Source: Beroe forskalii (taxonomy: Eukaryota; Ctenophora; Nuda; Beroida; Beroidae). From it: 64,000 nt of DNA. Every line of letters begins with the position of its first letter. The stretch's first letter is position 1. Position numbers and translations under genes: made by a program. Under the pieces are notes generated by a model. The model was not told the origin of the DNA. It worked only from the letters and a program-made list of their open reading frames with translations, and searched no databases. Below are positions 11,540-56,895 of the stretch, in pieces. The DNA lies in the NCBI GenBank assembly GCA_011033025.1, contig WFMF01000004.1, forward strand, positions 744,001-808,000, read 5' to 3'.

Positions 11540-13150
11540 TTTTTTCAAATTTTTGAGGTAGTTCCACCTTGAAGCTTAATTCAAATTTCAGTGCAAAATG
11601 GTCACCAGGGCATTCATTTAGTACTGAAGAATTTTCAAAGTCAGAGTAGCAGTTTGTAATAATAACATCAATGGTGCTGTAAGTAAATTTATTTCCTTTC
11701 TTTGCTACTCTAGTATAATTTTGTATTGTCTGCACCATATTAAAAGATCTAAGAGTAGAATCTAGTTTCTTATAATCAGCTGAATTTATCTTATTTTGGT
11801 CTATATTGATGTCTCCTACCCAGATCACCTTCTTTCCCTTGAGTTTGATCATACATTCTGTAAAATAATCCAGAAATTCATTAAGTTTACAATACCCTCC
11901 AGAACGGTAAAACCCACAAAGATATATGTTGCTACTTTTGATTTTGATCCATTTGGCTTCTATTGTTGAAATATTTGTACTGATTTTGACTTCATCAACT
12001 GCAACTTTATTGGGTAAAAGTGTCACAAGAGTTGTGATTTTTGTCCAATGGATCCATTGGATCCATCATGTCCAATGGACATGTCCAATGGACGTCCATT
12101 GGACATCCATTGAATGTCCATCGGGTAAAACGTCCAATGGTGTTCAATGGATCCAATGGATCCATTGGATCCAGTTTGATGTTCAATGGACATGTTCAAT
12201 GGATCCAATGGATGTTCAATGGATCCATCTGAGTGGATCCAATGGACACAATCACCAAACATGGTTTGGTAGATGGACATCAGTCTGGTATTTTTGTTCA
12301 ATGGATCCATTGTGTCCATTGGATCCAATGGATCCATTGTGTCCATTGTGTCCATTGAACATGTCCATTGGATCCATCTGATCCATTGTACATGGTGTCC
12401 ATTGGATCCATTGTGTCCAACGGATCCATTGTGTCCAATGGACAAAATGGATCCATTGGATCCAATGGACACAATGTTCAATGGATCCAATGGATCCAAT
12501 GGACATGTCCAATGGTGTTCAATGGACGCAATGGATCCATTGGATCCAATGGACAAAATGGATCCAATGAACAAAAATACCAGTCTCATGTCCATCTACC
12601 AAACCATGTTTGGTGATTGTGTCCATTGGATCCACTCAGATGGATCCATTGAACATCCATTGGATCCATTGAACATGTCCATTGAACATCAAAAATGGAT
12701 CCAATGGATCCATTGGATCCATTGAACACCATTGGACGTTTTTACCGATGGACGTCATGTTCAATGGATGTCCAATGGATGTCCAATGGATGTCCATTGG
12801 ACATGTCCATTGGACATGATGGATCCAATGGATCCATTGGACAAAAATCACAACTCTTGTGACACTTTTACCCTTTATTGCTTATTATCAGTCCACAACC
12901 TCCTCTAGTACCTGAACCTCTATCAGCTCTTTTGAACTCAAAATTGGCAGGTATATTTAAAGTATTGGATGAGATACTTTCTCGTTAAGGTTAGTTTCAT
13001 TCAAGACATAATATCCATGTTGTATTTCTTAATCATTTGACAAATCTGTGTTGACTTGGAAATTCCAATAAGGCCTCCCTGGATGTTGCAATGACACACA
13101 GTAAGATTGTGTAATAAATTAGAGTTGGTCATTCTTATGAGACATAAAAA
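11540..13150 (-). pseudogene. LINE AP-type endonuclease domain, interrupted by an 860 bp element
   Basis: The frame at 11529-12026 shows GDINID, YSTIDVIITN and GDHFAL, matching the late catalytic blocks of LINE apurinic-like endonucleases. On the far side of the insertion, 12880-13100 continues with RGGCGLIIS and, after a few stops, an LNET-like block and an NIQGG start. Removing 12013-12872 plus one TSD copy restores the junction ISNKVAVDE. That supports a clean insertion into a once-continuous ORF. Confidence 0.75.
12013..12872. mobile_element. Iteron-packed TIR element E1 (TCCATTGGA type), 8 bp TSD
   Basis: 860 bp flanked by the duplication CTTTATTG (12005-12012 and 12873-12880). The inverted termini start GGTAAAAGTGTCACAAGAG and stay near-perfect for about 40 bp. 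The body is almost entirely overlapping TCCATTGG/CCAATGGA words, often joined to GATCC, in both orientations. All ORFs in it (MDPMDPL, GSNGSIGSI patterns) are products of this repeat. There is no transposase, so it is non-autonomous. The TSD length would fit hAT, P, Merlin or MuDR-like superfamilies. Confidence 0.85.
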
Positions 13151-13251
13151 TGGAATGATTGATCATTGCAGACACCTAATTTGAAAAAATCTAAGCATGA
13201 ATAAATATCTAAAAACAAGTTGTCAAAATTAGCTAAACACATTAGGTAATA

Positions 13252-14093
13252 GGGGAGCGATGGGGCAAATGGGATAGTATACCAAATGGGACCCTTGCAA
13301 TTCCTGGGAATTTGCATGGGTTGGGACTAAAATTTTTGTTGCTGCTCAATGGGTCACCGAGATAGTTCACTTAAACCATGAAGTCACTGAGGTAATTCAA
13401 TCAGGCTCTTCTTCACACACATACTTCCTTACACCAGATAATGAGTAACGATGTTGCTTGTTTTACTCCTATCATGACATGATTTGTATTGGAATATTCC
13501 CTTTATGTTTGATTGTATTTGGTTCGTCATCATGTATTCTCCAGTGATTGATGGGTTTTTGGTTGGTTAATGATAGTCTAATATGTTAATTAGCCATAAA
13601 TTGAACTGCCATATAATTTGTAAAATGGGATACTCATGAGTTTGTAATATGGGATATCCCATTTGGCCATTTTACTATATCCCATTTGACCAATTATGGT
13701 TTTTCTAATTTTCTATTTAATTGGGACATGGTTTGAATTTTATCATTTTATCATAAAATGTGTTCCTATTTCATTTGCACTTTCCAGGCATCCAAAATTT
13801 TGTTTTAAATACAAGATGTTAAATGGGACACTGGAAGTTGGTCAAATGGGATATCCCATTTGGGCTATTTATGGGTCCCATTTGACAAACTTTCACAGAA
13901 AAATCAAATGAGGGTTGGCCAAACGGGATGAGGCCACACCCACAAAATGGGCGGGGAATGGTGAAGTTTGATGTTATTACACTAATCTTCAGGCAATAGC
14001 GAGTATCTATGCAAAAAATTATATGGAAATCGGCTAAAATGAAAACTATACAGACTTTAGAATTTTAGGGTCCCATTTGCCCCATCGCTCCCC
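13252..14093. mobile_element. Iteron-bearing TIR element E5 (AAATGGGA type), TA target
   Basis: The ends are GGGGAGCGATGGGGCAAATG and its reverse complement, each preceded or followed by TA (13250-13251, 14094-14095). This is a Tc1/mariner-like target choice. The interior holds at least eight aaatggga words on both strands, several fused as aaatgggatatcccattt. It sits inside the LINE between the ORF1 and endonuclease remnants. No transposase seen. Confidence 0.75.
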
Positions 14094-14150
14094 TAAATTA
14101 TTATAATTGAAGATTAAAGGCCAATACTCATTGTTGATCAAGGTAAATGC

Positions 14151-14660: not shown

Positions 14661-14663
14661 GCA

Positions 14664-15686: not shown

Positions 15687-15689
15687 ATC

Positions 15690-16440: not shown

Positions 16441-17120
16441 GGGCACCGTCGCTCAAAATCTGGGCACCATGGAATTTTTGATACCAATCTATCCTAATTC
16501 TACGATAGAAACACAAAAACAGATATTTTTTGTATTTTTCTGGCGTTGCCAGTACCATTTTCAAAAAGGCGGATAATTGCGATTCAAACGCGGAGTCTTA
16601 AGAATAATGGACACCACCGGCTAGCCAACTTGCCAGACAGCCAGCTACCGGTTACCCAGCCGGTTCGAGATCGCGAATTCGTACTCTTCTGATCCAGATG
16701 ATTAAGAAACGGCCAAGAGCACGACAAGTTCCTCAGGATTGTGAACCGTCGCTCAAAAATTCAAGCACCATGGAATTTTCTGATACTAATCTACTAATTC
16801 TACGAAGATGGAAAACAGATTTGTTTATCAGCTAAAGTCTTGCCAGTACCATTTTCAAGCTGATAATTGCGATTACGGCAGTCTTAAGAACTTCTCTGAG
16901 GAGTCACCGGCTAGCCGATTTGATAGACAGCCAGCTAGCTGGTTACCCAGCCGGCCAGCAGGTCGGCTAGTTTGTCAGCTGGTCGATAGTTGATCCTCAC
17001 AGTGATTTCGGCCGATAATTATGATAACTTGGAAAATGGAAGCTTTAGTTTATGAAGTACATTAGTACTATACAAGGTTAAAATTGTACATCCCAATCGG
17101 AGTCAGGGGTATGCATCTTG
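16441..17120. repeat. Dispersed GGCTAGCCGG-type repeats and decayed copies of flanking repeats
   Basis: Pairs of ~100 bp direct repeats (caccatggaattttctgatac near 16468 and 16766) alternate with clusters of ccggctagcc/gccagctagctgg words at 16620-16665 and 16905-16985. No coding region supported. Confidence 0.5.
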
Positions 17121-19140
17121 AGACGCCGAGTGTCCCGACATTTCATCTTCGACACTTCATCTCAAAATGTACAGAAAAAGGTTCATCTGGTACTGATAAA
17201 TTGAGGAAGCAAGCAGCACTTTATCAATGAAAGATCAACGGACATTTCATCTCGCGACACTCATCTCACGACATTTGACGTTTCATCTCGACACTTCATT
17301 CAAAGTACGACATTTCATCTGGCACTGTAAATTGATTTTAACTCTGCCGGGTACGATATTTTGATCTTCGAGAGCAGACGTTTCATCTCCAAGGCTATCG
17401 ATTCACTTCATCATTGGGGGTTGACAACCTTTTAAAGGGAAATTTGATTCAGGTATGCCCTTTCTTTCCCCAAGGCCGGGAAAATTTCCCATTTCGGGGG
17501 TAAAATCTTTTTTCAGGGGGAAACTTATTCGGGGTGTATTTTTTTTTCCCCATCTCAGACGGGGGAAACTTCCCTTTCTCTGGGGTCCATTTAATTTTCA
17601 GGGGACCTCATCTGGGGGGCGACACTTTATCCGGGGTTCAAACCAAATTTTGGGGGTTCACACTTCATTAAAGGAACGACACTTCATTTTGGACGCACAT
17701 TTCATCCCCGGGGCAGAAACTCTTTAAATACTCAAGAATTCGCGGCACTTCATTTTATAAAAAAGGGGGCCTTCACCCTGGGTACAAAGGGCCATCTCTG
17801 CGAAAATTCATTCGGGGACGACACTTTCATTTTTGGGGCAAGCCCATCTAAATCGTTATGGGGGAAGCCATTTTATTAAAACCTAAATTTTTTATTCAGG
17901 GAAGACATTTCATTTTGGTACCACACTTCATATCAGACTGCGACACTTTATCTCTGGCCGGCGGGTACGATACTTCATCTTTGACTGCGACACTTCATCT
18001 CTGGGTACGACACTTCCCAGAGATGAAGTGTTGCAGTCTGAGATGAAGTGTCGTACCTAGAGATGAAAAGTCCCAGTCTGACTCTGAGATGAAATGTCGT
18101 TGTCTGGGATGAATTGTCGTACCCCGAGATGAAGTGTCGTAACCAGAGATAAAGTGTCGCAATCTGAGATGAAGTGGCGTACCTAGAGATGAAATGTCCC
18201 AGTCTGAGATGAAGTGTCGTACCCTGAGATGAAATGTCGCAGTCTTAGTGAAGTTTCGTACCCTGTGTTGCAGTGGCGTACCCTGAGATGAAATCTCGTT
18301 GTCTGAGATGAAGTGTTGTACCCTGAGATGAAGTGTCGTACCCTGAGATGAAATTTCGTAGTTTGAGATGAAGTGTCGTAGCCAGAGATAAAATGTATGT
18401 CGTACCTTGAGATGAAGACGTGTCGTACCCTGAGATGAAGTGTCGTACCCTGAGATGATCTGTCGTACCCAGAGATGAAGCGCCGTACCCATAGATGAAG
18501 TGTCGCAGTCTGAGGTAAAGTTTCGTACTGAGAGATGAAGTGTCGCAGTCTGAGATGAAGTGTCGTTCCATGAGATGAAGTGTGGTACCCTGAGTTGAAG
18601 TTTTGAACCCTGAGATGAAGTGTCGCTGTCTGAGATGAAGTTTCGTACCTTGAGATGAAGTGTCGTACCCGCCAGAGATGAAGGTTCGCAGTCTGAGATG
18701 AAGTGTCGTACACCCTGAGATGAAGTGTCGTACTCTGAGATGAATTATTGTACCGAAAGATGGAATGTCGCAGTCTGAGATGAAGTGTCGTACCTGAGAT
18801 GAAGTGTCATACCGAGAGATGTAATGTCCCAGTCTAAGATGAAGGGTCATACACTGAGATCAAGTTTCCTACCCTGATAAGAGGTGTCAACCCGAGTTGA
18901 AATGTCGTAGCCTTGGAGATGAAACGTCGTACTCTCGAGATCATATGTCAGTACAATCAAGTTACAGCACAAGATGTTTTGTCGTACCCTTTGAGATGAA
19001 ACGTCGCACTCTGGAGATGAAATGTCGTACTTCAGGATAGAATCAATTTACAGTACGAGATGAAATGTCGAGCTTTGAGATGAAGTGTCGAAGATGAAAT
19101 GTCGTGAGATGAAGTGTCGCGAGATGAAATGTCTGTTCCC
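17120..19140. repeat. Palindromic satellite of CGACACTTCATCTC words
   Basis: 17120-18010 carries the words gacatttcatctc/cgacacttcat. From about 18016 to 19130 the same ~20 bp word appears inverted as a tight tandem (agatgaagtgtcgtaccctg, over 45 copies). The centre lies at ~18010 (cacttcccagagatgaagtg). Minus-strand ORFs reading HFISGYDTSSQGTTLHLR-type repeats are artefacts. The left half is much more degenerate than the right. Confidence 0.8.
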
Positions 19141-19450
19141 CGATCTTTTCATTGATACTGCTTGCTTCCTCCTCCTCCTTCTCTATCAGTCACGTGAACC
19201 TGGTTCTGCTCGATCATTGGTTGAGGGAGAGTGTCCCTTGCTTTGTCATGTGATCTGACTGGGGACACTCGGCATTCACATGCACCCTGACTCCTGATTG
19301 GGATGTACAATTTTAACCTTGTATAGTACGAATGTACTTCTTGGCTCCCAATGTATAAACTAAAGCTTCCATTTTCCAAGTTATCGCAATTATCAGCTCG
19401 AAAATTGCACTGGCAAGGCGATCGGCTAGCCGACCAGCTGACAAACTAGC
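19141..19450. repeat. Copy of the 20625-20815 repeat, same orientation, plus GGCTAGCCG words
   Basis: actgcttgcttcctcc...gtgatctgactggggacact...gattgggatgtacaattttaac occurs here and again at 20688-20815. The inverse occurs at 16260-16370. No gene. Confidence 0.6.
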
Positions 19451-20486
19451 CGGCCGGGGTAAAGGGACACTTGACCCCCCGACATTACATCCCCCGACAT
19501 TACATCCCCCGACACTACATCCCCCGACATTACAACCCCTACTACAGTACTGTAAATCTATAGAGGAAAGCGGGGGGTCAAACGTCGCAGTTCGACGATT
19601 GCTGCGACATTTGACCCCCCGACATTGCATTCCCCGATGAATAAACATAAATCAAACGCACTGATAGGCGGCTTAACCAAGGTTTTTAAGTGCGACATTT
19701 GACCCCCCCGACATCACATCCCCTCTATATGCACAGTAAACTCCTATGCAACTGTGCTTGGGAACTGTGCTTGGGAACGACTGAGCTGAGGACGTAGTGT
19801 CAAACAAAATGAACCCTCCTCGATTGAACAGCTCCTCGAACCTCCCCTCCCTTCAGCCTGCTCCCTCATATTCTTAAACAGCTCCTTCCTCGTCAACCCC
19901 TCCTGCCATGCCTTCCCTCCACACCCCAGCAACTCTCCTGACATACTGGAAAGTGAACGACTCTGTCAGTCTGTGCATGGTGTGGTGATGGGACCTTCAA
20001 AGCAGCTCCCAAGCGGGAGACCCACCTCTACACTGTCCACGGATAAAATATTGGATTTACTGTTCCAGAGTGTTCCTCCCTGTTGCGGATGTTGTGGCTT
20101 CCTTCGAGTCCCTCTCTAGCTTCGGCTGGATCTGCCCGCACCACCAACGCCCTTGACTCCTTTCACCACTCCTTAAACTCCTTGCTATGAGGCCACCACT
20201 CCTCCATGTGGAACCTTCTCAAGACACTCCAGTCGCAGCAGAACCTCTCCAGAACCAAGATGTTCCGTGTAACCAGAGGAGACGTGTTCAAGCCATCTGC
20301 TCTGGAAAGAAGGAGGACCTACAGGATCCAGAACCTCCTCCAGACCTACTCCAGATCTTCTGCTGACAGCTTCCTGTCTATCAGATTTTATAAACCACAG
20401 GGGGTCAAGTGTCGGGGGATGTAGTGTCGGGGGATGTACTGTCGGGGGATGTAATGTCGGGGGGTCAAATGTCGCACTTTCCCGGC
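19451..20486. mobile_element. Iteron-bearing element with GACATTACATCCCCC words at both ends
   Basis: The left end (gggtaaagggacacttgacccccc) and right end (ggggggtcaaatgtcgcactttccc) are inverted. Both are followed inward by short arrays of cccccgacattacat, more of them on the left (19475-19720) and four on the right (20400-20465). It lies within ccggctagcc DNA, so the TSD cannot be resolved because the target is itself palindromic. The centre (19750-20395) is less repetitive. It contains a short Cys/His segment (CxxC...H....H, 19985-20035) but no convincing ORF. Confidence 0.6.
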
Positions 20487-20815
20487 CGGCTAGCCGACCT
20501 GCTGGCTAACCGGCTACAAAACAATAAAACGGATTTTTTGTGTTTCACATTTCACAGATCTTGGGATCGGAATAAGCTTCAAGACTGCCGAACGATGAAA
20601 TAGAATTAGCAAGAGTGCCTACTCGTTAAAATATAACAAACTAGGTCACTGTTAACTGGATTTCTTCATGGTCAAAGAGATACTGCTTGCTTCCTCCTCT
20701 ATCAGTCACGTGAACCTTGTTCTGCTCTATCAATGGTTGAGGGAGTGTCCTCTGCTTTGTCATGTGATCTGACTGGGGACACTCCTGATTGGGATGTACA
20801 ATTTTAACCCCTGTA

Positions 20816-21035
20816 TAGTACCTAGCCAACCGGCCAGCCGGCCGGCTAGCCGGTTAGCCGGCCGGCTGGCCGGCCGGCTAGTCAATCAGCCGGTCGGCTA
20901 GCCGCCCGGCTAGCCTCCCGGCTTGCCAGTTAGCCGGCCGGCTAGCCGGTCGGTTAGCCGGTCGGCTAGCCGGCCGGCTAGCCGATGAGCCAACCGGCTA
21001 GCCGACTGGCCAGCCGGTTAGCCGGCCGGCTAACC
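20816..21035. repeat. CCGGCTAGCCGG palindromic satellite
   Basis: About 220 bp of near-continuous ccggctagcc, ggccggctag and gtcggctagc words, self-complementary and rich in NheI-like GCTAGC and GGCCGG sites. ORFs on both strands (ASRLAGRL) are artefacts. Confidence 0.85.
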
Positions 21036-21428: not shown

Positions 21429-21461
21429 CTTGGCGGAGGGTTCTGTTTATCCAGTTTCTCT

Positions 21462-22116: not shown

Positions 22117-22121
<5 letters not shown>

Positions 22122-39335: not shown

Positions 39336-39537
39336 GTAAGTAAAAGTATTGTATCTATTCACCCGAGGTCAGACCAACTTCCCCTTTTGCCCTATATGTC
39401 CTGCCTTAAACCAAAAAATCATGAATTCATTCTTTCAATCATTTATTCATTAACTCATCCAATCATTTAAATCATTCATCCAATCATTTAAATCATTGAT
39501 TCATCCAATCATTTATCATCCATTCATTCATTCACAG

Positions 39538-39889: not shown

Positions 39890-41102
39890 GGCAAATGTAA
39901 AGTTCTGCGCAAGGCTTAACTGAGCGCAAATTTGCGCTCATTTGCGCTCGTTAGCGCTCAAATTAGGGAAATTTTGCGCTCGTTAGCGCTCGTTAGCGCT
40001 CATTTGCGCTCCGGAGCCTCGAAAATGACTGAGCGCAAATGAGCGCAAATTTTGCGCTCATACGTGCTCGTCATCGCTCATATATGTGCTCATTAACGCT
40101 CGTTAGCGTCCATTTTGCGCCCACTTTGCGCCCATTTTGCGCTCAGAGCGCTAACGAGCGCAAAATGATCCCTGGAAAAATGTCTTTTTGCGCTCAGATG
40201 CGCTCATTTGCGCTCAGCCATACTGAGCGCAATTTTGCGCTCATTAGCGCTCATTAGCGCCCATAAGCGCCCGTTAGCGCTCAGTTGCGCTCAGTTGCGC
40301 TTATTGCCGATTTGCGCCCAGATGCGCTCAATTGCGCTCAGTTTCACCACACCTCAGCAATTTTGCGCCCATTTTGCGCTCAGCCTTTCTGAGCGCAAAT
40401 GAGCGCTAACGAGCGCAAAAATTTTGCGCCCATTTGAGCTCATTTGCGCTCGTATGTGCTCGTAAGTGCTCATTTGCGCTCGGTAGTGCTCATTTGCGCT
40501 CGGTAGCGCTCATTTGCGCTCGAAAGCGCTCATTTGCGCTCGAAAGCGTTCATTTGCGCTCAGAAGCGCTCATTTGCGCCCAGTTATTCGAGGCTTACGT
40601 TTCTGAGCCGGCATAGGTGTCTTGTACTAGCACATTGCGTGAAGGGCGCAGCTCACAAGCCACGAACCGTCGAAACATAGGTCTTGCTTGTTGTTTCACG
40701 TGCGAACAGAGAACTGCACACGCGACGTCACAGATGTTTGCAAGCATGGGCATATAAATATGAAAGCCGAGCATTGTTATTGAGCAAGGCTGAAGGCAAT
40801 CTGAATCAGTGTCACAATAAAAAGTCGCGGCTCACAGTGCAGACTACCCTTCTCTGCCGTGGTTGACTGGTTGCTAGGCAACATGAACAATGTCATGTCA
40901 CGTGACTATATACTAATCCAGTGCCGACGACAGGTTCGAAGTAGACCACAGTTTCCTACGATTCGTGTTGCAAAAAATGTGCGTGCGGCGGAGGGTAGCC
41001 CTGACCCCTTATCTTCAAAGCTTGCTAAACACGTATATCCCTGTCTGCGTTGCGCGGCGCGCGTACGCACACCTCTGCGGGCTTAGGAACTTCAAAGCGC
41101 TA

Positions 41103-41740
41103 GATGCGATGCGCTTAATCATATTTTCTGGGTGACGTCATAGATTATGAAGGCTTCCGTTTTCTCTAACCAGGGGCGTCGCGCCGCGCATTCTTTGCAC
41201 TAAACCAGGGTCATGGTATTGGTTGCCTGGTGATAGGATTTTACCCTACCCTCCGCCGCGCGCCATTTTTTTTCTGCAACACGACCCTCCAAAGCAAATT
41301 TCCGAGTGTTGCGCGCTAGGGATGGGTGAAATCCATCTAGGTGATACCAGACGTGCAGACCCGCTGATGCAGCCGCTGACTGAGCGGTGCGCGGCGCGTC
41401 GCTCAGAACGGTCTTTCATCGATACTGATAGATAGAGACAACTGACAAGGTCATGGTTAGGGCAACTGCAAGTGCAAGCGCCTCGACGGACGTTGCCCGT
41501 CCATTTCTTCTGACTGCAACTGGGTGGCTCCCATTTATATGGGAGACTAGACCAAACTGAATACGGGCTAGTCTCCATAAAATTATAAACGGGAGCTTGC
41601 CCTAACCATGACCCTGGTTTTGTGCAAAGAGTGCGCGGCGTGACGCCCCTGGTTTTGGGGAAACAGAAGCCTTCATTATCTAATTCCATGAGTAATACGT
41701 GTCACCCAGAAAATAAAATTAAAATTTAGCGCATCGCATC
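41103..41740. repeat. 638 bp inverted repeat nested in element E2
   Basis: The left arm from tagatgcgatgcgcttaa through ttttctgggtgac, gaaggcttccg and accaggggcgtcgcg is mirrored by the right arm ending ...agcgcatcgcatct. The arms are about 110-140 bp. The centre (41230-41590) carries ggcaac/gttgcc and gacggacgttgcccgtcc pairings. Probably a separate MITE that inserted in E2. Confidence 0.65.
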
Positions 41741-41925
41741 TTATACCCGCAACGTTCCACATTTGACTATTTGAGTTTGACCGATGGTCACATTTGCGCT
41801 GTCGCCATTTGACCAGTTGGCAACCCAGTCAGAATAAATAGATGAGCAACGACCTTGTCCGATAACGTCCGTTGACAACACGACCCTCCAAATTTTGCCT
41901 CCAAATTAGTGTCCCTTATAATTTT

Positions 41926-41986
41926 GTCAGACGTTGTCTGACCCCTTCGCCTTCGGTCAGACAACGTCTGACAAATATAATTAGAG
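41926..41986. repeat. Long hairpin with TTCG-type loop
   Basis: gtcagacgttgtctgacc and ggtcagacaacgtctgac are perfect reverse complements around ccttcgccttc, extended by an ataatt/aattat pair. The same core (gacgttgtctgactccttcg) reappears at 55488 inside element E4. Confidence 0.75.
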
Positions 41987-43532
41987 CGCCCGCGCCTTCA
42001 TCATCTTGATCTATGACAAACACGTCACTCGGAAAAATATAGTTATTAATTAAGCGCATCTGCCATCCAACGCTTTAAAGGCCAGGGTTGCCCTAACCAA
42101 AACCAGGACTCTGGTTTTGCGCTGCACAGCGTGCGTGGCAAGCGACTTAGCGACGCCCCTGGTTACTGGTTTGGGGAAGGCCAGGGTTAGGATCATGATT
42201 AGGGCCATGATTTGTTAGGTTTAGGGTAAGGGTGATATGAGAATCAGCGACCGACGCTGAATTCTCGTGATGCCGAGGGTCTGTCTACGTCCGACAAGGG
42301 GACTAGCAACGCCTTGCCCTAACCTGCTAACCAGGACCCTGGTTTTGCGACGCCCCTGGTTAGGGGAAGGCAACGCCAGACATTCAGACAAATTGGGATA
42401 TTTGAAGTTAGTGCCGCGCATTGAAAATAATAAATATGAATATGAATCTATACCCAACTGCCGTTATCGGCACTGGATAGTCACGTGTCATGCATCAATC
42501 GACATTGTAAAAATTTCATAGCAACCACTGCAGAAAATGAATAGCCTGCACTTGGCACTGCGAGCTGCAATTCGTTATGTGATTGCCTAACTCTGCTTTC
42601 TAAACCTCTTGCAATTGCATAAGTTCTTTGACGTTTCGAGGAAGCAAAGAATGTGATTGTGAATGTATAATTTAAACCCCTGAATCCCTGATTCGATGCT
42701 TCGTGGCATGTGAGCTCCGCAAGCCAGCTGCCAGCACCTGACACAGCTATTCCGGCTCAGGAACGTAAGTCTCTAGTAACTGGGCGCAAATGAGCGCAAT
42801 TGAGCGCTAATGAGCGCAATTGAGCGCAATTGAGCGCAATTGAGCGCAATTAAGCGCTAATGAGCGTAATTGAGCGCAATTGAGCGCTAATGAGCGCAAT
42901 TGAGCGCTAATGAGCGTAATTGAGCGCTAATGAGCGCAATTGAGCGCTAATGAGCGCACTTAAGCGCAACTGAGCGCAAATGAGAATAAGAAAGTTCTAT
43001 TTTTTGTAAAATAGCTACAACTGAGCGCAGCTGAGCGGAATTGAGCGCAACTGAGCGCAAAATTGAAATTATTTGCGCTCAGGACAACTGAGCGCAAAAT
43101 TGAAAATTTGCGCTCAGTTGTTCTGAGCGCATATGAGCGCAAATGAGCGCAAAATAATTTGCGCTCAGTAAAACTGAGCGCAAAATGCAAAAATTTGCGC
43201 TCGTTAGCGCTCGTTAGCGCTCATTTTTAAATTCTGTAAATTTTGCGCTCGTTAGCGCTCTGAGCGCAAAATGGGCGCAAAATGGGCGCTAACGAGCGTT
43301 AATGAGCACATATGAGCGATGACGAGCATATATGAGCGCAAAATTTTGCGCTCATTTGCGCTCAGTTATTTTCGAGGCTCTAGAGCGCTAATGGGCGCTA
43401 ACGAGCGGTAATGAGCGCTAACGAGCGCAAAATTTTGCGCTCGTTAGCGCTCGTTAGCAATCATATGTGCTCAATTGTGCTCATTTGCGCTCAGTTAAGC
43501 CTTGCGCTATACTTTACATTTGCCGGTTACCA

Positions 43533-44360: not shown

Positions 44361-45645
44361 TCGGCTGTCGCAGTTGGAACATTCTGACAAGATGCATTAC
44401 TTGATCCTAGGTCTGATTTTTTGTTCCTGGGGTGGAATTAGTGAATTATTCATCCAAGAAGAGTCTCCTTGATCCTGAGAGAGTGTCCCTGATGCTGGGG
44501 AAGACTCTATGATCATAAGAGAGTCTCCTTGATGCTGAGATCGTCTCCCTATTCTTGAAAGAGGAGGCTACACTCCTTCATGACAGCTATGTACCCTAGG
44601 GTACATTCCTTGATTCTAGGACAGCATCCTAGATCTTGCAAAATTGTCCTTGATCCTGAGAGAGTCTCCTTGATCTTCAGAGAGTCTCCTTGATCCTGAG
44701 AGAGTCTCCTTGATCCTGAGAGAGTGTCCCTGATGCTGGGGAAGACTCTATGATCCTAAGAGAGTCTCCTTGATGCTGAGATCGTCTCCCTATTCCTGAA
44801 AGAGGAGGCTACACTCCTTCATGACAGCTATGTACCCTAGGGTACATTCCTTGATTCTAGGACAGCATCCTAGATCTTGCAAAATTGTCCTTGATCCTGA
44901 GAGAGTCTCCTTGATCCTGAGAGAGTCTCCTTGATCCTGAGAGAGTCTCCCTGATCCTAGGGAAGACTCTATGATCCTCAGAGAGTCTCCCTGATCCTGA
45001 GGGAGTCTCCCTGATCCCAAGGGAAGAACTCTATGATCCTGAGAGAGTCTCCTTGATCCTGGGATAGTCTCTTAGATCCTGAGAGAGTCTCCTTGATCCT
45101 GAGAGAGTCTCCTTGATCCTGAGAGAGTCTCCCTGATCCTAGGGAAGACTCTATGATCCTCAGAAAGTCTCCCTGACTCTGAGAGAGTCTCCCTGATCCT
45201 AGGGAAGACTCTATGATCCTGAGAGAGTCTCCCTGATCCCAAGGGAAGAACTCTATGATCCTGAGAGAGTCTCCTTGATGCTGAGATAGTGTCCCTGATG
45301 TTGGGAGAGTCTCCTTGATCCTGAGAGAGTCTCTTTGATCCTGAGAGAGTCTCCCTGATCCTAGGGAAGACTCTATGATCCTGAGAGAGTCTCCCTGATC
45401 CTGAGAGAGTCTCTCTGATCCTGAGAGAGTCTCCCTGATCCTGAGAGAGTCTCTCTGATCCTGAGAGAGTCTCCCTGATCCTGAGAGAGTCTCTCTGATC
45501 CCAAAGGAAGAAGTCTATGATCCTGAGAGAGTCTCCTTGATGCTGAGATAGTGTCCCTGATGTTGGGAGAGTCACCTTAATCCTGGGAGATTGTCTTTGA
45601 TCCTAGGGAAGACTATGATCCTGAGAGAGCCTCCTTGATCTTATA
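44361..45645 (+). repeat. 5' flank and 20 bp minisatellite, copy C
   Basis: Starts agttggaacattctgacaag, then the array. The 18 bp palindrome is at 44589-44606 and 44830-44847. The array is shorter than in B, with a section of pure gatcctgagagagtctccct repeats at 45340-45490 that suggests recent slippage or unequal exchange. Confidence 0.9.
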
Positions 45646-45717: not shown

Positions 45718-48591
45718 ATGAGCAGCACAGACTCAGATTTTGTGGAATCAGACCCTGAGTATTCTGATGAATCAGGCACCACAACTACAGGTATCATCTA
45801 CCTAATGCTTGCATAACATATTCATTGAAATGTCCAAGATACTTTGATAGAGTTTAGATCACTCCCTTTAGTGGCTAGCCTCAGCACAACTGAGATGCTC
45901 TTTCATAAAAATTGGTAACAGAAAATAGGCAAAATGGTACCACAGGAACACGACAAAAATTAGCCTCCATTAGCCTCCATTAGCCTCCATGGAGGCTGAG
46001 TGGAGGCTGAGTGGAGCCTGAGTGGAGGCTAAGTGGAGGCTAATTTCAAAAATTAGCCTCCACGGAGGCTAGTGGAGGCATGAGGCTAATTTTCGAAAAA
46101 ATAGCCTCCACTATGGAGGCTATATTAGCCTCCACTAGCCTCCACTAGGCTCCACTAGCCTCCACTCAGCCTCCACTCAGCCTCCACTCAGCCTCCAAGG
46201 GAGGCTAAAATTTTTTGGTTTAGCCTCCACTAGCCTCCACTCAAGATTTAGCCTCCATTAGCCTCCACGGAAATTTAAAAATTCATTTTTTGGATTCTAT
46301 GGAAGCTATTTTGACAGTGCTAGTGGAGGCTATAGCCTCCAAATGGAGGCTAAAATCATGAAAGAACACAGATAATATGCTAGCCTCCACAAAATTAAAT
46401 TTATGTCATGTTTTTACATTTTGTAACATAGACCAAAGTCTAGTATTAGGCACCACTAGGCCTCCACTAGAATCCACCTCCAGCCTCCACTCAGCTCCAC
46501 TAGGCTCCACTCAGCCTCCACTAGGTTTCCACCTTAGATTCAGCCTCCACTAGCCTCCACGCAGCCTCCACTCAGCCTCCATTAGCCTCCACTCAGCCTC
46601 CACTAGGCTCCACTAGCCTCCACTAGGCTCCACTAGCCTCCACTAGGCTAGTGGAGCTAAGTGGAGCCTAGTGGAGGCTGAGTGGAGGCTAAGTGGAGCC
46701 TAGTGGAGGCTGAATGGAGCCTAGTTGAGGCTGAGTGGAGCCTAGTGGAGGCTAGTGGAGGTTGAGTGGAGCCTAGTGGAGGCTAAGTGGAGCCTAGTGG
46801 AGGCTGAATGGAGGCTAGTGGAGCCTATTGGAGCCTAGTGGAGGTTGAGTGGAGCCTAGTGGAGGCTAAGTGGAGCCTAGTGGAGGCTGAGTGGGGAGCC
46901 TAGTGGAGGCTAGTGGGGCCTGAGTGGAGCCTAGTGGAGGCTGAGTGGAGCCTAGTGGAGGCTAAGTGGAGGCTAGTGGAGGCTGAGTGGAGCCTAGTGG
47001 AGGCTGAGGGAGCCTAGTGGAGGCTGAATGGATCCTAGTGGAGGCTAGTGGAGCCTATTGGATCCTAGTGGAGGCTAGTGGAGCCTGGTGGGCCAGTGGT
47101 GGCCAGTGGAGTGGGAGGCTGAGTGGAGCCTAGTGGAGGCTAGTGGGGCCTAAGTGGAGCCTAGTGGAGGCTGAGTGGAGCCTAGTGGAGGCTAAGTGGA
47201 GGCTGAGGAGCCTAGTGGAGGCTGAGTGGAGCCTAGTGGAGGCTGAGTGGAGCCTAGTGGAGGCTGAGTGGAGCCTAGTGGAGGCTAAGTGGAGCCTAGT
47301 GGAGGCTGAGTGTAGGACAGTTGGAGCTGTCTGAAAGTTTGAAGCGATATATTGTTTTTCACATTAGTACACATAAATCACCATTTTCAGCAAGAAATTT
47401 GTGTTTTTGTAGGCTTATTGATTTAGGTTTCAGTTTTCCACTTAGCCTCCACTCAGCCTCCATTAGCCTCCATTAGCCTCCATATGGAGGCTTTAGCCTA
47501 CAAAATTGACTTTTAAATTTCTGTGGAGGCTAATGGAGGCTACCCTGAGTGGAGGCTAGTGGAGGCTATTGAGGCTAACCAAAATTTAGCCTCCATGGAG
47601 GCTGAGTGGAGGCTGAGTGGAGGCTGAGTGGAGGCTAGTGGAGGCTAATGGAGGCTAGTGGAGGCTAATATAGCTCCATAGTGGAGGCTATTTTCAAAAA
47701 TTAGCCTCTATGCTCCACTAAGCCTCCGTGGAGGCTAATTTTGAAATTAGCCCACTTAGGCTCCACTCAGGCTCCACTCAGCCTCCACTCAGCCTCCATG
47801 GAGGCTAATGGAGGCTAATGGAGGCTAATTTTTGTCGTGTTCCTGTGGTACCATTTTGCCCAGAAAATAATAAGCTGTCATTGTATTGAAAGTAATGAAT
47901 ATAAATCTCATTCAATGTTGTGTTAATTAATACCTAAATTCATCATTATTTGCAGATACAGATGAAGATGTATCTGAAACCGTTTTTTAAAAACGAAACC
48001 AGGAGTGCTACACAGAACACAGCCCTATACATGTGCAGTCTGCAGCAGCAAGAGGTTACTTATAATTCCTGGTAGATTTTCGCCAATTGCTTTAATGAGT
48101 TAATGCTTGATGGCTCACTGTTGAAAAATATCTATTTCTATTTGGTTGAAAAGAAGTGAAGTAATGACTTTATCGGTTGATTAATCTGTTTTTAAAAGTT
48201 AGATTTCTTTCTCTTCAAAATTTCTTTGGTCTTATTAAACAGGTTCTATTCATCAGATGAAACCGTTCCGTTGGGAGGAGAAGGGTCATTGTACACCAAC
48301 AAGAAATGCTGCAGCAGGTGAAACCTAACATAGTACCATGATTATCTCCACAATCAACAATTATTATTCCATTACTGATATTTTGAAATTTTCAGTCCGT
48401 TCTGAGTAGACTCAATTAGAAGCAGTTTTCCTCTATTACAAACTTTAAAGCAGCATTTGCAACTGTTATCAGGCTCTTGACGTGCTGGCATCGGCTATAA
48501 ATTTGATAGACCCTAAGTACCAAGAGTACACTGACAAGATCAAAGACAGAGCCCTCCCAAGTCCACCAAGATTGGAGGGTTTAAAGCTCTG
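45718..48591 (+). pseudogene. RAG1-like unit copy C, exons 1-4
   Basis: Exon 1 45718-45790; exon 2 47956-48054; exon 3 48243-48317; exon 4 48473-48591. Exons 2-4 have single-base and codon-scale deletions (for example ccaggagtgc for ccagggagtgc, gccctatac for gcccctatac). Intron 1 contains the 1.9 kb element E3. Confidence 0.6.
45928..47860. mobile_element. Iteron-packed TIR element E3 (GGAGGCTAAT type), 9 bp TSD
   Basis: 1,933 bp between two CAGAAAATA copies (45919-45927, 47861-47869). The empty site taacagaaaataataagc is seen in copies A, B and E. Perfect terminal inverted repeats of about 40 bp start GGCAAAATGGTACCACAGGA. The body is gcctccact/agtggaggct words on both strands, with a tandem stretch at 46650-47320 and a unique AT-rich spacer at 47335-47445. 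The ORF reading SLVEAEWSLVEAEW is an artefact. No transposase. Confidence 0.88.
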
Positions 48592-48794: not shown

Positions 48795-49800
48795 ACTCAC
48801 AAAGTAGAGACGAGAAGTTCTCAGGAGCAGTGCTTAAAGCATCGACGCTTCCTCAAGAGAGAGTGTGGGGTCGAGTATCCCTCCAAGAAGATTTTACGAC
48901 GGGAAAAATGAAGCGTGTAGTTAAAGTAGTACCAGACATGAATGAAATCATCAAAGGAAAACTGTCCCTAGGGGTGTCTTCGTACCAAGTTATATGGACT
49001 ATCTTAGGTTACAGTCAAGCAATTCCATGAAGTTGGAATCCTCAGACCTTCTATGAAGGTGATTGAGTTCCAACTCAAGGATGGACTTGACGGGCAGGTA
49101 ATCAGATTGAAATAAAGGAGAAGTGGAATAAGATGGTTACCATGGGATTTGCTGTAGTGAAGATTGTCGACAAGACTGAAGCAATACACAAAACAGTGTT
49201 TGAGAATCCCATATCGAACTCAAATTTCTCTGTTAAGCCTTTGTGTATGGTACTTCAGGACGAAACTTACGAACTGTGTAAAGCTCTTTTCGAGAGGTAC
49301 CTGAAAGAGCAACCAAATACAGTGGTTGATATCACCCCTGACTATCAAGCGAACGTTTCATTTAATATTAAGAGATGTATGATTGATGGCAAATTGAGAG
49401 GTCTTATCAGTGGGCAGTCTGCGGCACATTGTTACGGGTGTGACTGGACTCTTGAGAACTATTATATTGGGGGAGCGACAGAAGGAAGTTTTTGGTGTTC
49501 ATTATTTGATGTTTGACGTTGGTGAACAGAGCAAAAAAGTTGGAGAACGTATATTTTCGGCTTTTACGCAAGGGGTTGATTGGTTGCAGAGACGCTAAGA
49601 AGAGGATGAACTTTACCGAGCAACCAATCGCCCCTCTGGAGAGCATGACTGTTCTTCATTCCGTCATCAATTGTTGCAAACTGATGTTCAATACCCTGGT
49701 CGTAGCCGAGTGTTGCAACCTGAGCACCATCAAACCCTACAAGAACATGTCATCAGATAACGTCAAACTAAGAGACGATGGCACGCATGACATTAAATGA
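48795..49800 (+). pseudogene. RAG1/Transib-like transposase core, exon 5 of copy C
   Basis: No large insertion. After ACTCACAAAG the early frame suffers deletions (aaaactgtccc shortened, tagggttacag shortened, gacggggcagg shortened), so the DGLDG part is out of frame. From 49133 an open frame covers MGFAVVKIVDK, NSNFSVKPLC, LQDET, CMIDGKL (second candidate Asp) and the HCYGC pair. It then reaches an extra G (ttgggggagcg) that shifts the frame. A second frame (49513-49800) carries RAKKLENVYF and the SMTVLHSVINCC block. Confidence 0.75.
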
Positions 49801-51080: not shown

Positions 51081-51746
51081 ACCTAAACTTTTTTCAGTCT
51101 CTTCGTGTACCAGCTTTTTTGTCAGCTTATTTTGACCCATGCTTGGGCTTGTTGGTTCTGGATTTCTATCAGGGGGCAAAAACATATCCCAAATAACTAT
51201 CCCAAATGCAATGTCCCCATTCAGCAACTACATATTATTAAATATGCCCATAGTTGACTATCACTATGATTGCATATGTTACAAATAATGGTATTGAGGG
51301 AATTGGCTTCATCCATCTATGAGTTGTTAAGTGTTTTTTCATAGTTCTCCCTGAAATTTATATCTATGTAAGTTATTTATTTATTGTTGATTTATATTTG
51401 AAATAAAGCTTATTACCTAATTTACCATTTGCAATTTATAGTAGCCCAATTGGCACCATTAACAAATTCTCCATATTCTAAGATACTACTGCATCAGCTG
51501 GAAAGTTTTTAATGAAAAAAAGCAAATCTCAACATAGCAAATAAGTAAAACTTTAGCACAAAATTCAACTACCACTCGCCCAGTTGGTACTCAAAAACCA
51601 AACTTATCTGTCAATTCTGTTCAGGTTCGCACTATAGCAACAGCCTGTGTGTTTCCTTTCTCCCAGAATTTGACAACCTTTGACATGTTGAAATTATGCC
51701 TTCATTGTGAAATGTCTCCTCTGAAAACACTCCAAAACATTTCGAG
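51081..51746. other. No recognised feature
   Basis: AT-rich unique-looking sequence between the first Penelope fragment and RAG1-like copy D. No ORF with a motif. Confidence 0.4.
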
Positions 51747-52242
51747 AGGTACCCGAAAAGAGCAACCAAATACGGTGGTTGATATCACCCCTGACTATCA
51801 AGCGAACGTTTCATTTAATATTAAGAGATGTATGATTGATGGCAAATTGAGAGGTCTTATCAGTGGGCAGTCTGCGGCACATTGTTACGGGTGTGACTGG
51901 ACTCTTGAGAACTATTATATTGGGGAGCGACAGAAGGAAGTTTTGGTGTTCATTATTTGATGTTTGACGTTGGTGAACAGAGCAAAAAAGTTGGAGAACG
52001 TATATTTTCGGCTTTTACGCAAGGGGTTGATTGGTTGCAGAGACGCTAAGAAGAGGATGAACTTTACCGAGCAACCAATCGCCCCTCTGGAGAGCATGAC
52101 TGTTCTTCATTCCGTCATCAATTGTTGCAAACTGATGTTCAATACCCTGGTCGTAGCCGAGTGTTGCAACCTGAGCACCATCAAACCCTACAAGAACATG
52201 TCATCAGATAACGTCAAACTAAGAGACGATGGCATCGCATGA
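51747..52242 (+). pseudogene. RAG1/Transib-like transposase fragment, copy D
   Basis: Truncated at the 5' side. It begins within exon 5 (cgagaggtacccg) and keeps EQPNTVVDITPDYQANVSF, CMIDGKL with the second candidate catalytic Asp, and the HCYGC pair. It has four T (gaagttttggtg) where copy A has five, so here the frame leads RQKEVLVFII then TGA, after which the RAKKLENVYF...SMTVLH frame follows in phase. The copy A frame avoids this TGA only by the extra T. This suggests the ancestral frame ran straight through, with a sense codon in place of TGA. Confidence 0.75.
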
Positions 52243-54178: not shown

Positions 54179-54189
54179 CCGGGGCAACT

Positions 54190-54521: not shown

Positions 54522-55509
54522 CTGCCGCTTTTTCAAAGGAGGGGGTAAGCGCCATCGACATGTTTTTGAGATATTACAACTTTTGTGTTTGTAATTTTTA
54601 AGACCTTTTAATTCCACCAAATTTTCTTTAATTTTAGGAACAATGCTAGCTGAAACTTAGACTTAAATTTTAGTACCAATTTCAACTTTCCCCGATAAGA
54701 TGAACACAAATATCATTAAAAATGAATTTTCGTAAAAATTTCTGCTAAATTTGAATTTTCACCTTGGACTTACCCTCTATTCTGAGAAAAGCATACACTT
54801 ACCTCCCTTTCTTGAGAAAAATGACTGAAGATCTAGATATCTGGGGTAAATCCACATTTTCAATTAAACTTAAAAGTAGGATGTGAAATGGTTTGTGTGT
54901 TTGTTTTTGGATTTTACCCCAAGTATGATGAATATTTGTTGTCATGTTAGCTCAAGAAAGGGAGGTAACTGTGCTATCATCCCCAAAATAATGAAATCTG
55001 ATCAGGGGGTAACTCCATTTCTCTCAGAAAAAGGGGGTAACTGTGGAGTTACTTCATTTTCTGAGACAATTGGTGTAGAAAATGCAGAAAAATCGGCATA
55101 ATAGGCCGCGAACTTTAGTTCGCCGCGAACCCGGGCGAACTCAGGCGGAACCCGCGCGAACTCCGCGCGGGTTCATAGCGTTCGCCGACAGTTCGCCAAT
55201 TTTTTCCTTGGCGAACTCCGCTGAAGTTCGCCGAGAGTTCGCCAGACGTTCGCCGAACTCCGGGCGAACTCAGGCGAACTCAGGCGAACCCGCGCGGAGT
55301 TCGCCGCAAACTAGCGAACTAGTTCGCCGCGAATAATTCGCAGCAAGAACTTAAAATTTTGGTTGGCGAACGATTTTTTGGAGTTCGCGGCGAACGAGTT
55401 CGCAACGGAACTAGTTCGCGGCGGACTGGATTCGCCGCGAACACCACCCCCTAAGTTCGCGGCGAACTAGTTCGCGGCGAACTCTGTCCGACGTTGTCTG
55501 ACTCCTTCG

Positions 55510-56220
55510 CCTTCGGTTAGGGTTTGGGTTAGGGTTTGGGTTGGGTTTTGGGTTAGGGCCCATCCATGAACTATAAAGGACGTCCGCAAAATTTCGAGCA
55601 TTTTAGACCCCTCCCTCCCCTTGTCCGCATTTCAGAAACCCCTCCCTCCCCACAGGACGTCCGCACTTTTCTTTAAAATCTTCTGAGTCATCATTCTGGG
55701 CCCGGAAATTTCACGATTTTCTTGTGAAATAACCGTCAAATCGACCATAACTTCAAAATTGCGGACGTCCGCATTTGACCAACACCCCTCCCCTATGTCC
55801 ACAAACGTCCGCATTGGGCGGACTCCCTCCTCCCCCCCTCATTGCGGACGTCCTTTATGGATGGCCCTTAGGGTTTTGGGTTAGGGTTAGGGTTTGGGTT
55901 TGGGTTAGGGGTTTGGGTTAGGGTTTGGGTTAGGGTTTGGGTTAGGGTTTTTGGGTTTGGGTTAGGGTTTGGGTTTGGGTTTAGGGTTTGGGTTTTGGTT
56001 GGGTTAGGGTTTGGGTTAGGGTTTGGGTTAGGGTTTGGGTTAGGGGTTTAGGGTTAGGGTTTGGGTTTTTGGGTTAGGGTTAGGGTTTGAATTAGGGTTT
56101 GGGTTAGGGTTTGGGTTTGGGTTAGGGTTTGGGTTAGGGTTTGGGTTTGGGTTTGGGTTAGGGTTAGGGGTTGGGTTCGGGTTTGGGTTTGCGTTTGGAT
56201 TCGGGTTAGGGTTTGGGTTG
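55510..56220 (+). repeat. Telomere-like TTAGGGTTTGGG array inside E4
   Basis: Mixed ttaggg and tttggg hexamers (plus strand G-rich), interrupted by 55556-55867. TTAGGG is the usual metazoan telomere repeat; the regular alternation with TTTGGG is not. G-tracts of three in phase would favour G-quadruplexes. Confidence 0.85.
55556..55867. mobile_element. 312 bp TIR element E6 (GGACGTCCGCA type) in the telomere-like array
   Basis: Ends GGGCC(C)ATCCAT...AAAGGACGTCCGCAA and the inverse ttgcggacgtcctttatgga, flanked by TTA on both sides. The interior has additional gacgtccgca/tgcggacgtcc words in both directions and C-rich ccctccctcccc stretches. Third level of nesting: minisatellite > outer element > E4 > E6. 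Confidence 0.75.
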
Positions 56221-56895
56221 GCGAACAATCGTTCGAGGTGAACTAGTTTGGCAGTTTGCAGCGGAATTGTTATAGCTGATGACAAACAAGTTCGCAGCAT
56301 AAAATGAATAATGAAGTTCGCCGCGAACTGGTTCGCCGCGAACTTAGAAAAAAACTAGTTCGCGGCGAACTAGTTCGCGGCGAATAATCCGCCGCGAACT
56401 TGTTCGCCACGAATCAGTTCGCCGCGAACGATTGTTCGCCGGCGAACAATCGTTCGCCAACCAAAAATTTTGAGTTCGCTGCGAACTAGTTCGCGGCGAA
56501 CTAGTTCGCCAGTTTGCGGCGAACTCCGCGCGGAACCGCCTGAGTTCGCTCGAGTTCGCCCGGAGTTCGGCGAACGTCCGGCGAACTCGGCGAACTTCAG
56601 CGGAGTTCGCCAAGGAAAAAAATTGGCGAACTGTCGGCGAACGCTATCGAACCCGCGCGGAGTTCGCGCGGGTTCGCCTGAGTTCGCCCGAGTTCGCGGC
56701 GAACTAAAGTTCGCGGCCTATTATGCCGAAAAATCTCCCAGATAGGTGGAATTACCCCCTAAAGTGAAACTGAAACAGTAAAATTATGATACGAGAATTA
56801 TTTTATCTTATGCAGCTCAGTGAGCTGATCACGATGATACCAAATTTGTGATTTTCGATTTTTTGGAGTTACCCCCTGTTTTGAAAAAGCGGCAG

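Follow-up and report, generated by a model that had tools for sequence, protein, structure and literature searches.

Word arrays in non-autonomous inverted-repeat elements of Beroe forskalii and their probable relation to Merlin transposons

Introduction

What mobilizes transposon-like elements that encode no recognizable transposase, and why are their bodies filled with copies of a short word in both orientations? The question is raised by a 64,000-nucleotide stretch of the ctenophore Beroe forskalii (contig WFMF01000004.1, positions 744,001 to 808,000), referred to below as the window. An earlier note on this DNA had proposed a common design for at least seven elements and had likened three further arrays to them. 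The analysis presented here confirms such a design in five window elements and suggests that they are probably non-autonomous members of the Merlin superfamily (IS1595-like DDE transposases), in which the word arrays represent amplified putative transposase-binding sites.

Results

Five window elements of one structural class

The following elements have GGCA or GGTA ends and 8-9 bp target site duplications (TSDs), all of them perfect in the window, and lack a recognizable transposase. Word counts are given as forward/reverse.

E1, 12013..12872, 860 bp; ends GGTAAAAGTG; TSD CTTTATTG at 12005-12012 and 12873-12880; word CCATTGGA, 15/18.
E3, 39890..43524, 3,635 bp; ends GGCAAATGTA; TSD GGTTACCA at 39882-39889 and 43525-43532; word GAGCGCAA, 25/27, in two arms.
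E4, 45928..47860, 1,933 bp; ends GGCAAAATGGTACC; TSD CAGAAAATA; word AGCCTCCA, 34/51.
E6, 55095..56727, 1,633 bp; ends GGCATAATAGGCC; TSD GAAAAATC; word AGTTCGCC, 12/13 with the nested middle excluded.
E8, 19458..20481, 1,024 bp; 5' end GGTAAAGGGACAC; TSD CCGGCCGG at 19450-19457 and 20482-20489; 15-bp word CCCCCGACATTACAT near the ends.

GGTA or GGCA is found at both ends of E1, E3, E4, and E6, and at the 5' end of E8 (GGTA), whose 3' end reads GAAAG inward if placed by the 8-bp TSD. The terminal inverted repeats (TIRs) extend over 130 bp at 91% identity in E1, 109 bp at 99% in E4, and, by an extension scan, about 66 bp in E6; they are weaker in E3 (17 bp by extension scan; three differences in 27 positions) and in E8, where small gaps set the two ends apart. 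E1 amounts almost to a single long inverted repeat, whose arms are complementary over 174 nt (97%) and 130 nt (91%). Two paralogous gene copies, near 5757-6518 and near 49091, show the E3 target site without the insertion, identical at 50 of 50 bases. The TSDs show only a mild A+T-rich centre.

Copies elsewhere in the genome were sampled for four of the five families, the E3 TSD being recorded in the window copy, and the TIR/TSD structure was present in most of the sampled copies, as the earlier note had expected. Both ends were found in 16 of 20 fetched copies of the E1 family, with 8-9 bp TSDs that were perfect in 13, had one mismatch in one, and were missing in two. For E4, both ends were seen in 17 of 20 copies, 16 with perfect 8-bp TSDs and one with a single mismatch; the TSD of the window copy itself is 9 bp long. 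Perfect TSDs flank five of six fetched E6 copies (none in the sixth) and all four E8 copies that have both ends, out of six fetched. Many identical ends show a recent spread of these elements in the genome.

Family-specific word arrays

Word counts were compared with the highest count reached by any 8-mer over 100 dinucleotide-shuffled versions, which was 7 for E1, 6 for E3, 5 for E4, and 6 for E6, well below the counts listed above on either strand. Each confirmed family has its own word, in agreement with the earlier note. The fraction of an element covered by 8-mers present at least four times is 0.82 in E1, 0.76 in E4, and 0.74 in E6, so the description of bodies filled with the word holds for these three; it does not hold for E3, with a coverage of 0.40 and a 2.1-kb middle containing no copy of the E3 word. 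Coverage in E8 is 0.18. Both orientations occur in each half of E1, E3, E4, and E6, unevenly in E3 and E4. Autocorrelation peaks lie at 10 in E3, at 10, 11, and 21 in E4, at 9 in E1, and at 15 in E8, and are mixed in E6. Several words are near-palindromic. A TTAGGG-like array is present in E6, and satellites with a 20-bp unit, such as that at 688-1816, occur often in the window.

Elements and arrays outside the class

The other named features differ from these five.

E2, 13252..14093; TIR GGGGAGCGATGGGGCAAATGGGA; TA target duplication.
E7, 55558..55871 (claimed at 55556), nested in E6; TIR GGGCC..ATCCAT..GGACGTCCGCA; flanks of about 3 bp.
Claimed E5, 54522..55094; no TIR, TSD, or word array found.
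Array 286..690; word ATCAGCGC, palindromic unit, 19/19, 10-bp period.
Array 17120..19140; word GAGATGAA, 36/5, mostly on one strand, 20-bp period.

E2 has TA flanks in the window and in all five copies with both ends (six fetched), a Tc1/mariner-like target duplication, and its word is sparse (5/5, coverage 0.13). E7, with six copies of its word, sits inside five of the six fetched E6-family copies; its flanks, known from few copies, are TTA in the window and TTT at another locus (L064). A 3-bp TSD, TTA or similar, is typical of PIF/Harbinger elements. In the claimed E5, a TIR/TSD scan found nothing, and the best word occurs three times, which equals the shuffle maximum. Of the seven elements reported to have inverted ends and clean target duplications, those at 12013, 39890, 45928, and 55095 were retained. 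The seven do not form one group, since at least three TSD types (8 bp, TA, and about 3 bp) are mixed among them and one shows no ends. Among the three additional arrays, 19451-20486 corresponds to E8, with TIR-type ends and a TSD, whereas 286-690 and 17120-19140 are real arrays for which the same scan found no ends; the strand balance of the former is automatic, because its unit is palindromic.

Merlin-encoding elements of the same genome

The criteria given for the Merlin superfamily are terminal GG, TSDs of 8-9 bp, and TIRs of 24-462 bp (PMC8101967). Transposase-encoding elements of this kind are present in B. forskalii. The element at positions 684-3419 of locus L063 has ends GGCAGTATCC, perfect over 150 bp, the 8-bp TSD CAATTTTC on both sides, and an open frame of 297 aa matching PF12762 (E 1.4e-19). 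Its word GACGTCTA occurs 5/5 and 4/5 times in the two ends, a strand balance that is automatic, as the unit TAGACGTCTA is palindromic. In the L082 family, the ends GGCAACTTGG / GGTAATTTGG (GGCA/GGTA), with TSD CTAATTTC, are followed by arms that are 80-84% word, with an 11-bp period and opposite orientations in the two arms. Among the best 100 of 128 ends of this family, 25 of 37 end pairs less than 6 kb apart enclose one of the 141 Merlin matches in the genome, with 0.06 expected.

For 17 Merlin genes (loci L056 and L063-L078) the upstream sequence was available; a GGCAGTnT block is present at 11 (L063, L064, L066-L069, and L073-L077), followed at ten of them by a clear word array and at L076 by a short run, as judged by eye and from 8-mer counts. 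The block is absent from the available stretch at six (L056, L065, L070, L071, L072, and L078), of which L056 is a broken piece and L070 and L072 have arrays nonetheless. The words differ by lineage (GGCGGACCTA, TCTCCGAGACT, GTCGGAACCTA, TAGACGTCTA, and TAGTGGAATTCCACTA); the L063 and L064 transposases, 94% identical, lie beside divergent, related versions of one word. Autocorrelation peaks are multiples of 11 in L066-L070, L072, L074, and L082, and 21 in L063 and L064; L070 has a 15-bp array as well. At L068 and L074 the arrays at the gene ends are in a single orientation, unlike those of the window elements, which run in both. An array of GCCGGCTAGC near L065 was rejected as that element's own, the same array and flank occurring alone in the window at 20823-21032.

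The Merlin transposase has a protein match in Mnemiopsis leidyi (86% identity over 43% of its length). Comparison of its structural model with solved structures gave no close fit: among the 50 matches listed, the integrase and transposase chains have TM-scores to the query of at most 0.35. In the model, the N-terminal part has zinc-ribbon-like cysteines and helices of the helix-turn-helix type.

The window itself yielded no Merlin match by tblastn and no Rfam match. A search of 10 kb around the 70 genomic occurrences of the E3 end pattern and around the best 100 of 337 E4 ends met none of the 141 Merlin matches. The window families are therefore tied to Merlin by build only, and the search for autonomous relatives, proposed in the earlier note, led to the similarly built L063 element and L082 family but to none with the exact E3 or listed E4 ends. 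Three long E4 copies, considered and rejected as autonomous candidates, have neither a Merlin match nor an open reading frame above 135 aa; the 4.8-kb E4 copy in L042 appears, by eye, to be a nested insertion. The E3 middle was likewise rejected as a recognizable transposase gene (no Merlin match by tblastn, and no Pfam match for the 151-aa one among its open reading frames).

Discussion

Assignment of the window elements

The assignment to Merlin, which we consider likely, is supported by the GG end and the 8-9 bp TSDs of all five window elements and by the similar anatomy of the Merlin-encoding elements described above; we infer that a Merlin enzyme mobilizes the five families and binds their words. 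The periods of E3 (10 bp) and E1 (9 bp) differ from the 11 bp of Merlin genes, which argues against it. The Merlin genes end in GGCAGT, compared with GGCAAA, GGCATA, or GGTAAA in the window elements, so that only GGYA is common to both. As the same build recurs in transposase-encoding elements of this genome, the design that the five elements share is not a chance feature of this window.

A less probable, though still plausible, source of mobility is a Mutator-type transposase, the window elements then being non-autonomous MULE or Foldback elements, having TSDs of 8-9 bp and tandem repeats in subterminal position, like Muta1 of Aedes aegypti or Foldback of Drosophila. There are 46 MULE matches in the genome, and the comparison with MuDR in the earlier note was apt insofar as MULEs here do carry subterminal word arrays: three loci (L059-L061) contain GGACTTTATGCCGACA in both orientations, the reverse complement of which includes GGCATAA, identical to the first seven bases of E6, and at L085, L087, and L088 the inverted ends are long and contain repeated words. 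In Muta1 itself, TSDs are 8 or 9 bp long and a 12-bp subterminal repeat is present nine times (PMC5225508). However, repeated ends were visible in only these six of ten fetched loci, and, in a comparison made by eye, none of the six appears to start with GGCA or GGTA and a unique block. The words in these loci recur with periods of 15-18 or about 31, rather than 10-11, and the 10-kb surroundings of the 70 E3 ends and of the best 100 of 337 E4 ends contain none of the 46 matches. The earlier note had named hAT and MuDR; the GG ends and 8-bp TSDs point instead to Merlin.

Two other explanations deny the words a role in protein binding or in transposition at all. The earlier note had regarded binding sites and captured satellites as both possible. 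That ordinary satellite or minisatellite arrays were caught between unrelated transposon ends would accord with the 20-bp satellites of the window, the TTAGGG-like array in E6, and the discussion of Merlin elements with internal tandem repeats as possible satellite seeds (PMC8101967), but it appears improbable: the strands are near balance in E1, E3, and E6, whereas a captured satellite usually has one orientation; each family has its own word, with periods of about 10-11 bp recurring in unrelated words; and Merlin-encoding elements carry the same type of array immediately inward of their ends. Growth of Foldback palindromes by hairpin-mediated rearrangement, in which the inverted structure would drive both array expansion and orientation, could explain the long inverted repeat of E1 and the near-palindromic form of several words; the single-orientation arrays at L068 and L074 speak against it, and helical spacing is not predicted by such models. 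We consider it improbable as well. We favour amplified binding sites over captured satellites, because the words adjoin the termini of transposase-encoding elements on the inner side, change from one transposase lineage to the next, and mostly recur at intervals of about one or two helical turns.

Possible mechanism

Each of the five elements ends in a short, unique block of about 13-35 bp that starts with GGCA or GGTA, with the family-specific array inward of it. If the arrays are binding sites for a Merlin transposase, the block would serve as the cut site, and the cognate enzyme would recognize the array, word by word, through its N-terminal DNA-binding region. With words about one or two helical turns apart, neighbouring transposase molecules would line up along the same side of the double helix, and the array would provide higher affinity and specificity for a word too short, and hence too common in the genome, to suffice alone. 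Array growth may have been favoured through better recruitment; in E1, E4, and E6 the array would have spread until the body was filled, at no cost, as there is no gene to keep.

On a more speculative note, and one to which we give little credence, each family, much of its body turned into some 25 to 130 putative sites for one Merlin transposase, could act as a sponge whose elements together titrate the enzyme, attract it ahead of the gene-bearing copy, and drive a chase in which word and transposase specificity change in step. The nearly identical transposases of L063 and L064, beside diverged forms of one word, would fit such a chase; a literature search on titration by internal repeats returned no paper.

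Among cut-and-paste superfamilies, Merlin has, as far as we are aware, received relatively little study. In the available part of its description, the terminal GG, TSD, and TIR length are named, and internal recognition sites are not (PMC8101967). Should the arrays indeed be binding sites, this genome would supply a ready-made collection of transposases paired with their sites, several of the words being readable by eye, and coevolution of the two would be open to direct test. It would also illustrate a simple route from mobile elements to short, dispersed, both-strand satellite-like arrays.

Comparison with known systems

Modular foldback ends of short tandem repeats and an 8-bp TSD, as in the window elements, are characteristic of the TU elements of sea urchin. 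The Muta1 MULE (PMC5225508) and the Tetris foldback element (PMC4079207) likewise combine TSDs of 8-10 bp and subterminal tandem repeats with non-autonomous members, but the Muta1 array is limited to the 145-bp ends, and the Tetris repeats are about 220 bp long. Galileo, of the P superfamily, offers a precedent for repeated binding sites and resembles the window elements in having a conserved end of about 40 bp and a family-specific TIR, in whose tandem repeats lie several sites bound by the THAP domain of its transposase; it differs in superfamily, in this DNA-binding domain, and in the few binding sites reported in the part of the account available (PMC3688188). Merlin, related to IS1016/IS1595, shares GG termini and 8-9 bp TSDs with the window elements and, in their relatives here, encodes a DDE_Tnp_IS1595 transposase, which the window elements lack. 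Some Merlin elements contain tandem repeats, whereas the accessible portion of the Merlin survey makes no mention of body-filling arrays of family-specific words at helical spacing (PMC8101967).

Elements in the window and their genomic copies

A scan of the window looked for pairs of exact inverted 10-mers that are bordered on their outer sides by an exact duplication of 7-10 bp. At least seven elements with inverted ends and target duplications had been proposed in an earlier note; the scan recovered those at 12013, 39890, 45928 and 55095, but not those at 13252, 54522 and 55556. Further hits within arrays are a product of the repeats themselves. A fifth element, E8, was absent from the first scan because small gaps make its two ends unlike each other; the array 19451-20486, earlier listed only as looking alike, is this transposon.

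Word-filled or word-bearing elements of the window
E1, 12013-12872: inverted ends and duplication (window scan)
E3, 39890-43524: inverted ends and duplication (window scan)
E4, 45928-47860: inverted ends and duplication (window scan)
E6, 55095-56727: inverted ends and duplication (window scan)
E8, 19458-20481: fifth element, target duplication CCGGCCGG

The common design was to be regarded as coincidence if copies elsewhere lacked this structure. Copies of E1, E4, E6 and E8 were fetched from the 216-Mb assembly G000, in which the window belongs to contig 469. Both ends are present in 16 of the 20 stretches fetched for E1, where the 8-9 bp duplication is perfect in 13, has one mismatch in 1 and is missing in 2. 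For E4, 17 of 20 have both ends (16 perfect duplications, one with one mismatch); the six E6 copies show five perfect duplications and one without, and all four E8 copies with both ends (6 fetched) have a perfect one. The genome evidence for E3 consists of end-pattern matches, 70 at no more than 3 mismatches and 28 of them exact, the non-exact ones being mostly the other end of E3, which differs at 3 places; its duplication was read in the window copy only, and its insertion has an exact empty site in two window paralogues of the host gene copy (50/50 bases). The E4 end pattern occurs 337 times at no more than 2 mismatches, and the 100 occurrences listed are identical. The many identical ends mark a recent spread of these families.

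The remaining candidates differ. Six copies of E2 (13252) were fetched; the five that retain both ends are flanked by TA, as is the window copy. The E2 word makes up only 13% of the element, in conflict with a word-filled element bearing 8-9 bp duplications. E7 (55556), with flanks of about 3 bp, lies inside five of the six fetched E6 copies and thus travels with E6. For E5 (54522), the window scan gave neither ends nor a duplication, and word counts gave no excess. The look-alike arrays 286-690 and 17120-19140 are real, the former with a palindromic unit and the latter mostly on one strand, but no ends were found for either in the window scan. A telomere-like TTAGGG/TTTGGG array (55515-56219) lies within E6 and in five of six fetched E6 copies; the short copy L052 lacks this array and E7 together.

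The window is eukaryotic in content, with LINE-type reverse transcriptase pieces as one example. It also contains a multi-copy gene family with a 253-aa frame (5757-6518 on the reverse strand, 39454-39900, 49091-49516 and 51538-51960). Two relatives have PF26100 in a precomputed Pfam table, and one is matched by RAG1, though weakly and below cut-off (E 0.0016). A CCTT-type pyrimidine tract of 4.4 kb occupies 29159-33577, the core of one strand being nearly all C and T. The 20-bp satellite ATCAAGGAGACTCTCTCAGG forms at least five blocks in both orientations (688-1816, 7791-8746, 37110-38312, 44647-45640 and 56955-58031).

Word content

In E1 the most frequent 8-mer has 33 copies (15 forward, 18 reverse); the corresponding counts are 52 for E3 (25/27), 85 for E4 (34/51) and 25 for E6 (12/13, nested middle left out), compared with a maximum for any 8-mer of 7, 6, 5 and 6, respectively, in 100 dinucleotide shuffles. 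The proposal that the bodies are filled with words on both strands holds for E1, E4 and E6, where frequent 8-mers cover 82%, 76% and 74%, but not for E3 (40%), E8 (0.18, not word-filled) or E2 (13%). The 2.1-kb middle of E3 has zero copies of its word, and no gene was recognised there. Each of 15 E4 copies of 1.8-2.1 kb has the word 72 to 96 times, and one enlarged copy has it 134 times.

Merlin transposases of the same genome

The genome has 35 PF12762 matches to Merlin transposases, and one of its Merlin proteins as query gave 141 matches, many of them pieces; the nearest named relative of a Merlin transposase here is a protein of the ctenophore Mnemiopsis leidyi, 86% identical across 43% of the query, so the genome may be that of a ctenophore. 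The element at locus L063 (684-3419) has ends GGCAGTATCC, perfect across 150 bp, the duplication CAATTTTC on both sides, the palindromic word TAGACGTCTA at both ends and an open 297-aa frame (DDE_Tnp_IS1595, E 1.4e-19). Its modelled transposase (mean pLDDT 89, 36 sequences) combines an N-terminal part with cysteines 35, 38, 60 and 63 invariant or nearly so, a helical part that HTH_23 matches weakly (E 0.079, short of the curated cut-off) and the DDE domain. By pattern the cysteines look zinc-ribbon-like; Pfam supports this in a single relative, L066, and there below threshold. The element has a second open frame (L063:2496-3083, 195 aa, proline-rich), the end of which aligns with the C-terminal part of a Merlin protein from Mnemiopsis leidyi at 29% identity across 119 residues; the product of this frame is possibly an accessory protein of that lineage.

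Comparison of upstream sequence at 17 Merlin loci (L056, L063-L078) revealed a GGCAGTnT block in 11; within the stretch examined it was not found in L056 (a broken piece), L065, L070, L071, L072 and L078. Arrays of a mostly 11-bp, lineage-specific word follow the block, with a short run only in L076; L070 and L072 have arrays and no block in that stretch. The transposases of L063 and L064 share 94% identity, and the two loci carry divergent versions of one word.

About 34 of the 141 matches (by eye) are pieces from residue ~146 on, mostly with at least 2 stops. One of them, fetched with its surroundings as L082, lies in an element of 2,189 bp that is bounded by GGCAACTTGG and GGTAATTTGG and has the target duplication CTAATTTC. 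The word makes up 80-84% of its two arms, which measure about 350 and 590 bp, and is oriented oppositely in them. Of 128 occurrences of the end pattern, 100 were listed; these yield 37 pairs no more than 6 kb apart, of which 25 have a Merlin match between them (expected 0.06). This family therefore combines GGCA/GGTA ends and an 8-bp duplication (one copy) with arms full of word and a remnant of Merlin. One 4.75-kb pair of this type (G000:C314:855230-859982; the usual member is 2.2-kb) surrounds a Merlin match to residues 10-175 with 28% identity and one internal stop, the frame being listed as 318 aa.

Spacing of the words

Autocorrelation peaks fall at 11 and its multiples in Merlin loci L066 to L070, L072 and L074 and in L082, at 21 in L063 and L064, at 10 in E3 and array 286-690, and at 10, 11 and 21 in E4; E1 peaks at 9, E8 and the second array of L070 at 15, and E6 is mixed. 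Most periods are thus close to one or two DNA turns across words of unrelated sequence, which we read as probable selection for sites along one helix face, E1, E6 and E8 being a poorer fit.

Assignment of the window families

A radius of 10 kb around the 70 E3 ends and the 100 listed E4 ends takes in none of the 141 Merlin and none of the 46 MULE matches. Three long E4 copies lack any Merlin match, and their ORFs do not exceed 135 aa. Autonomous relatives with the ends of window elements, which the earlier note proposed to look for, did not emerge from this test of E3 and listed E4 ends; no shared autonomous copy was found, and it is from ends, duplication length and build that we infer the tie to Merlin.

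MULE loci L059, L060 and L061 have the word GGACTTTATGCCGACA in both orientations, flanking the gene on both sides, so the word-array design occurs in more than one superfamily of this genome. That the window elements are themselves non-autonomous MULE/Foldback transposons is nevertheless unlikely. In favour of it, the genome has 46 MULE matches, and MULEs here have repeated words at their ends too. The first bases of E6, GGCATAA, occur on one strand of the L059-L061 word; this overlap could be accidental or could speak against Merlin for E6. However, the MULE loci with repeated ends visible by eye (6 of 10 fetched) start with the word or other sequence, not with GGCA/GGTA and a unique block, and their end-word periods are 15-18 or about 31; none of these six loci yielded its exact ends or a clean duplication.

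Possible role of the words and comparison with known systems

For Merlin-type elements, the observed ends, duplications, words, spacing and parallel anatomy are probably explained by a model in which the transposase would cut at the terminal block, while the words, as putative binding sites, would load it. A gene-less element could add words at no cost, and more words would give better transposase capture.

Subterminal repeats are known in hAT elements. They are also a described feature of MULEs (PMC5225508) and of Galileo (PMC3688188). For Merlin, the open-licence literature searched, as far as its text was available, yielded no description of helically spaced family-specific words; tandem repeats were called previously undescribed in 2021, with several Repbase Merlins noted to have them (PMC8101967). 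Footprinting in Galileo placed a THAP-domain site in the TIR; tandem repeats there contained more sites, and the authors suggested that specificity comes from multiple sites (PMC3688188).
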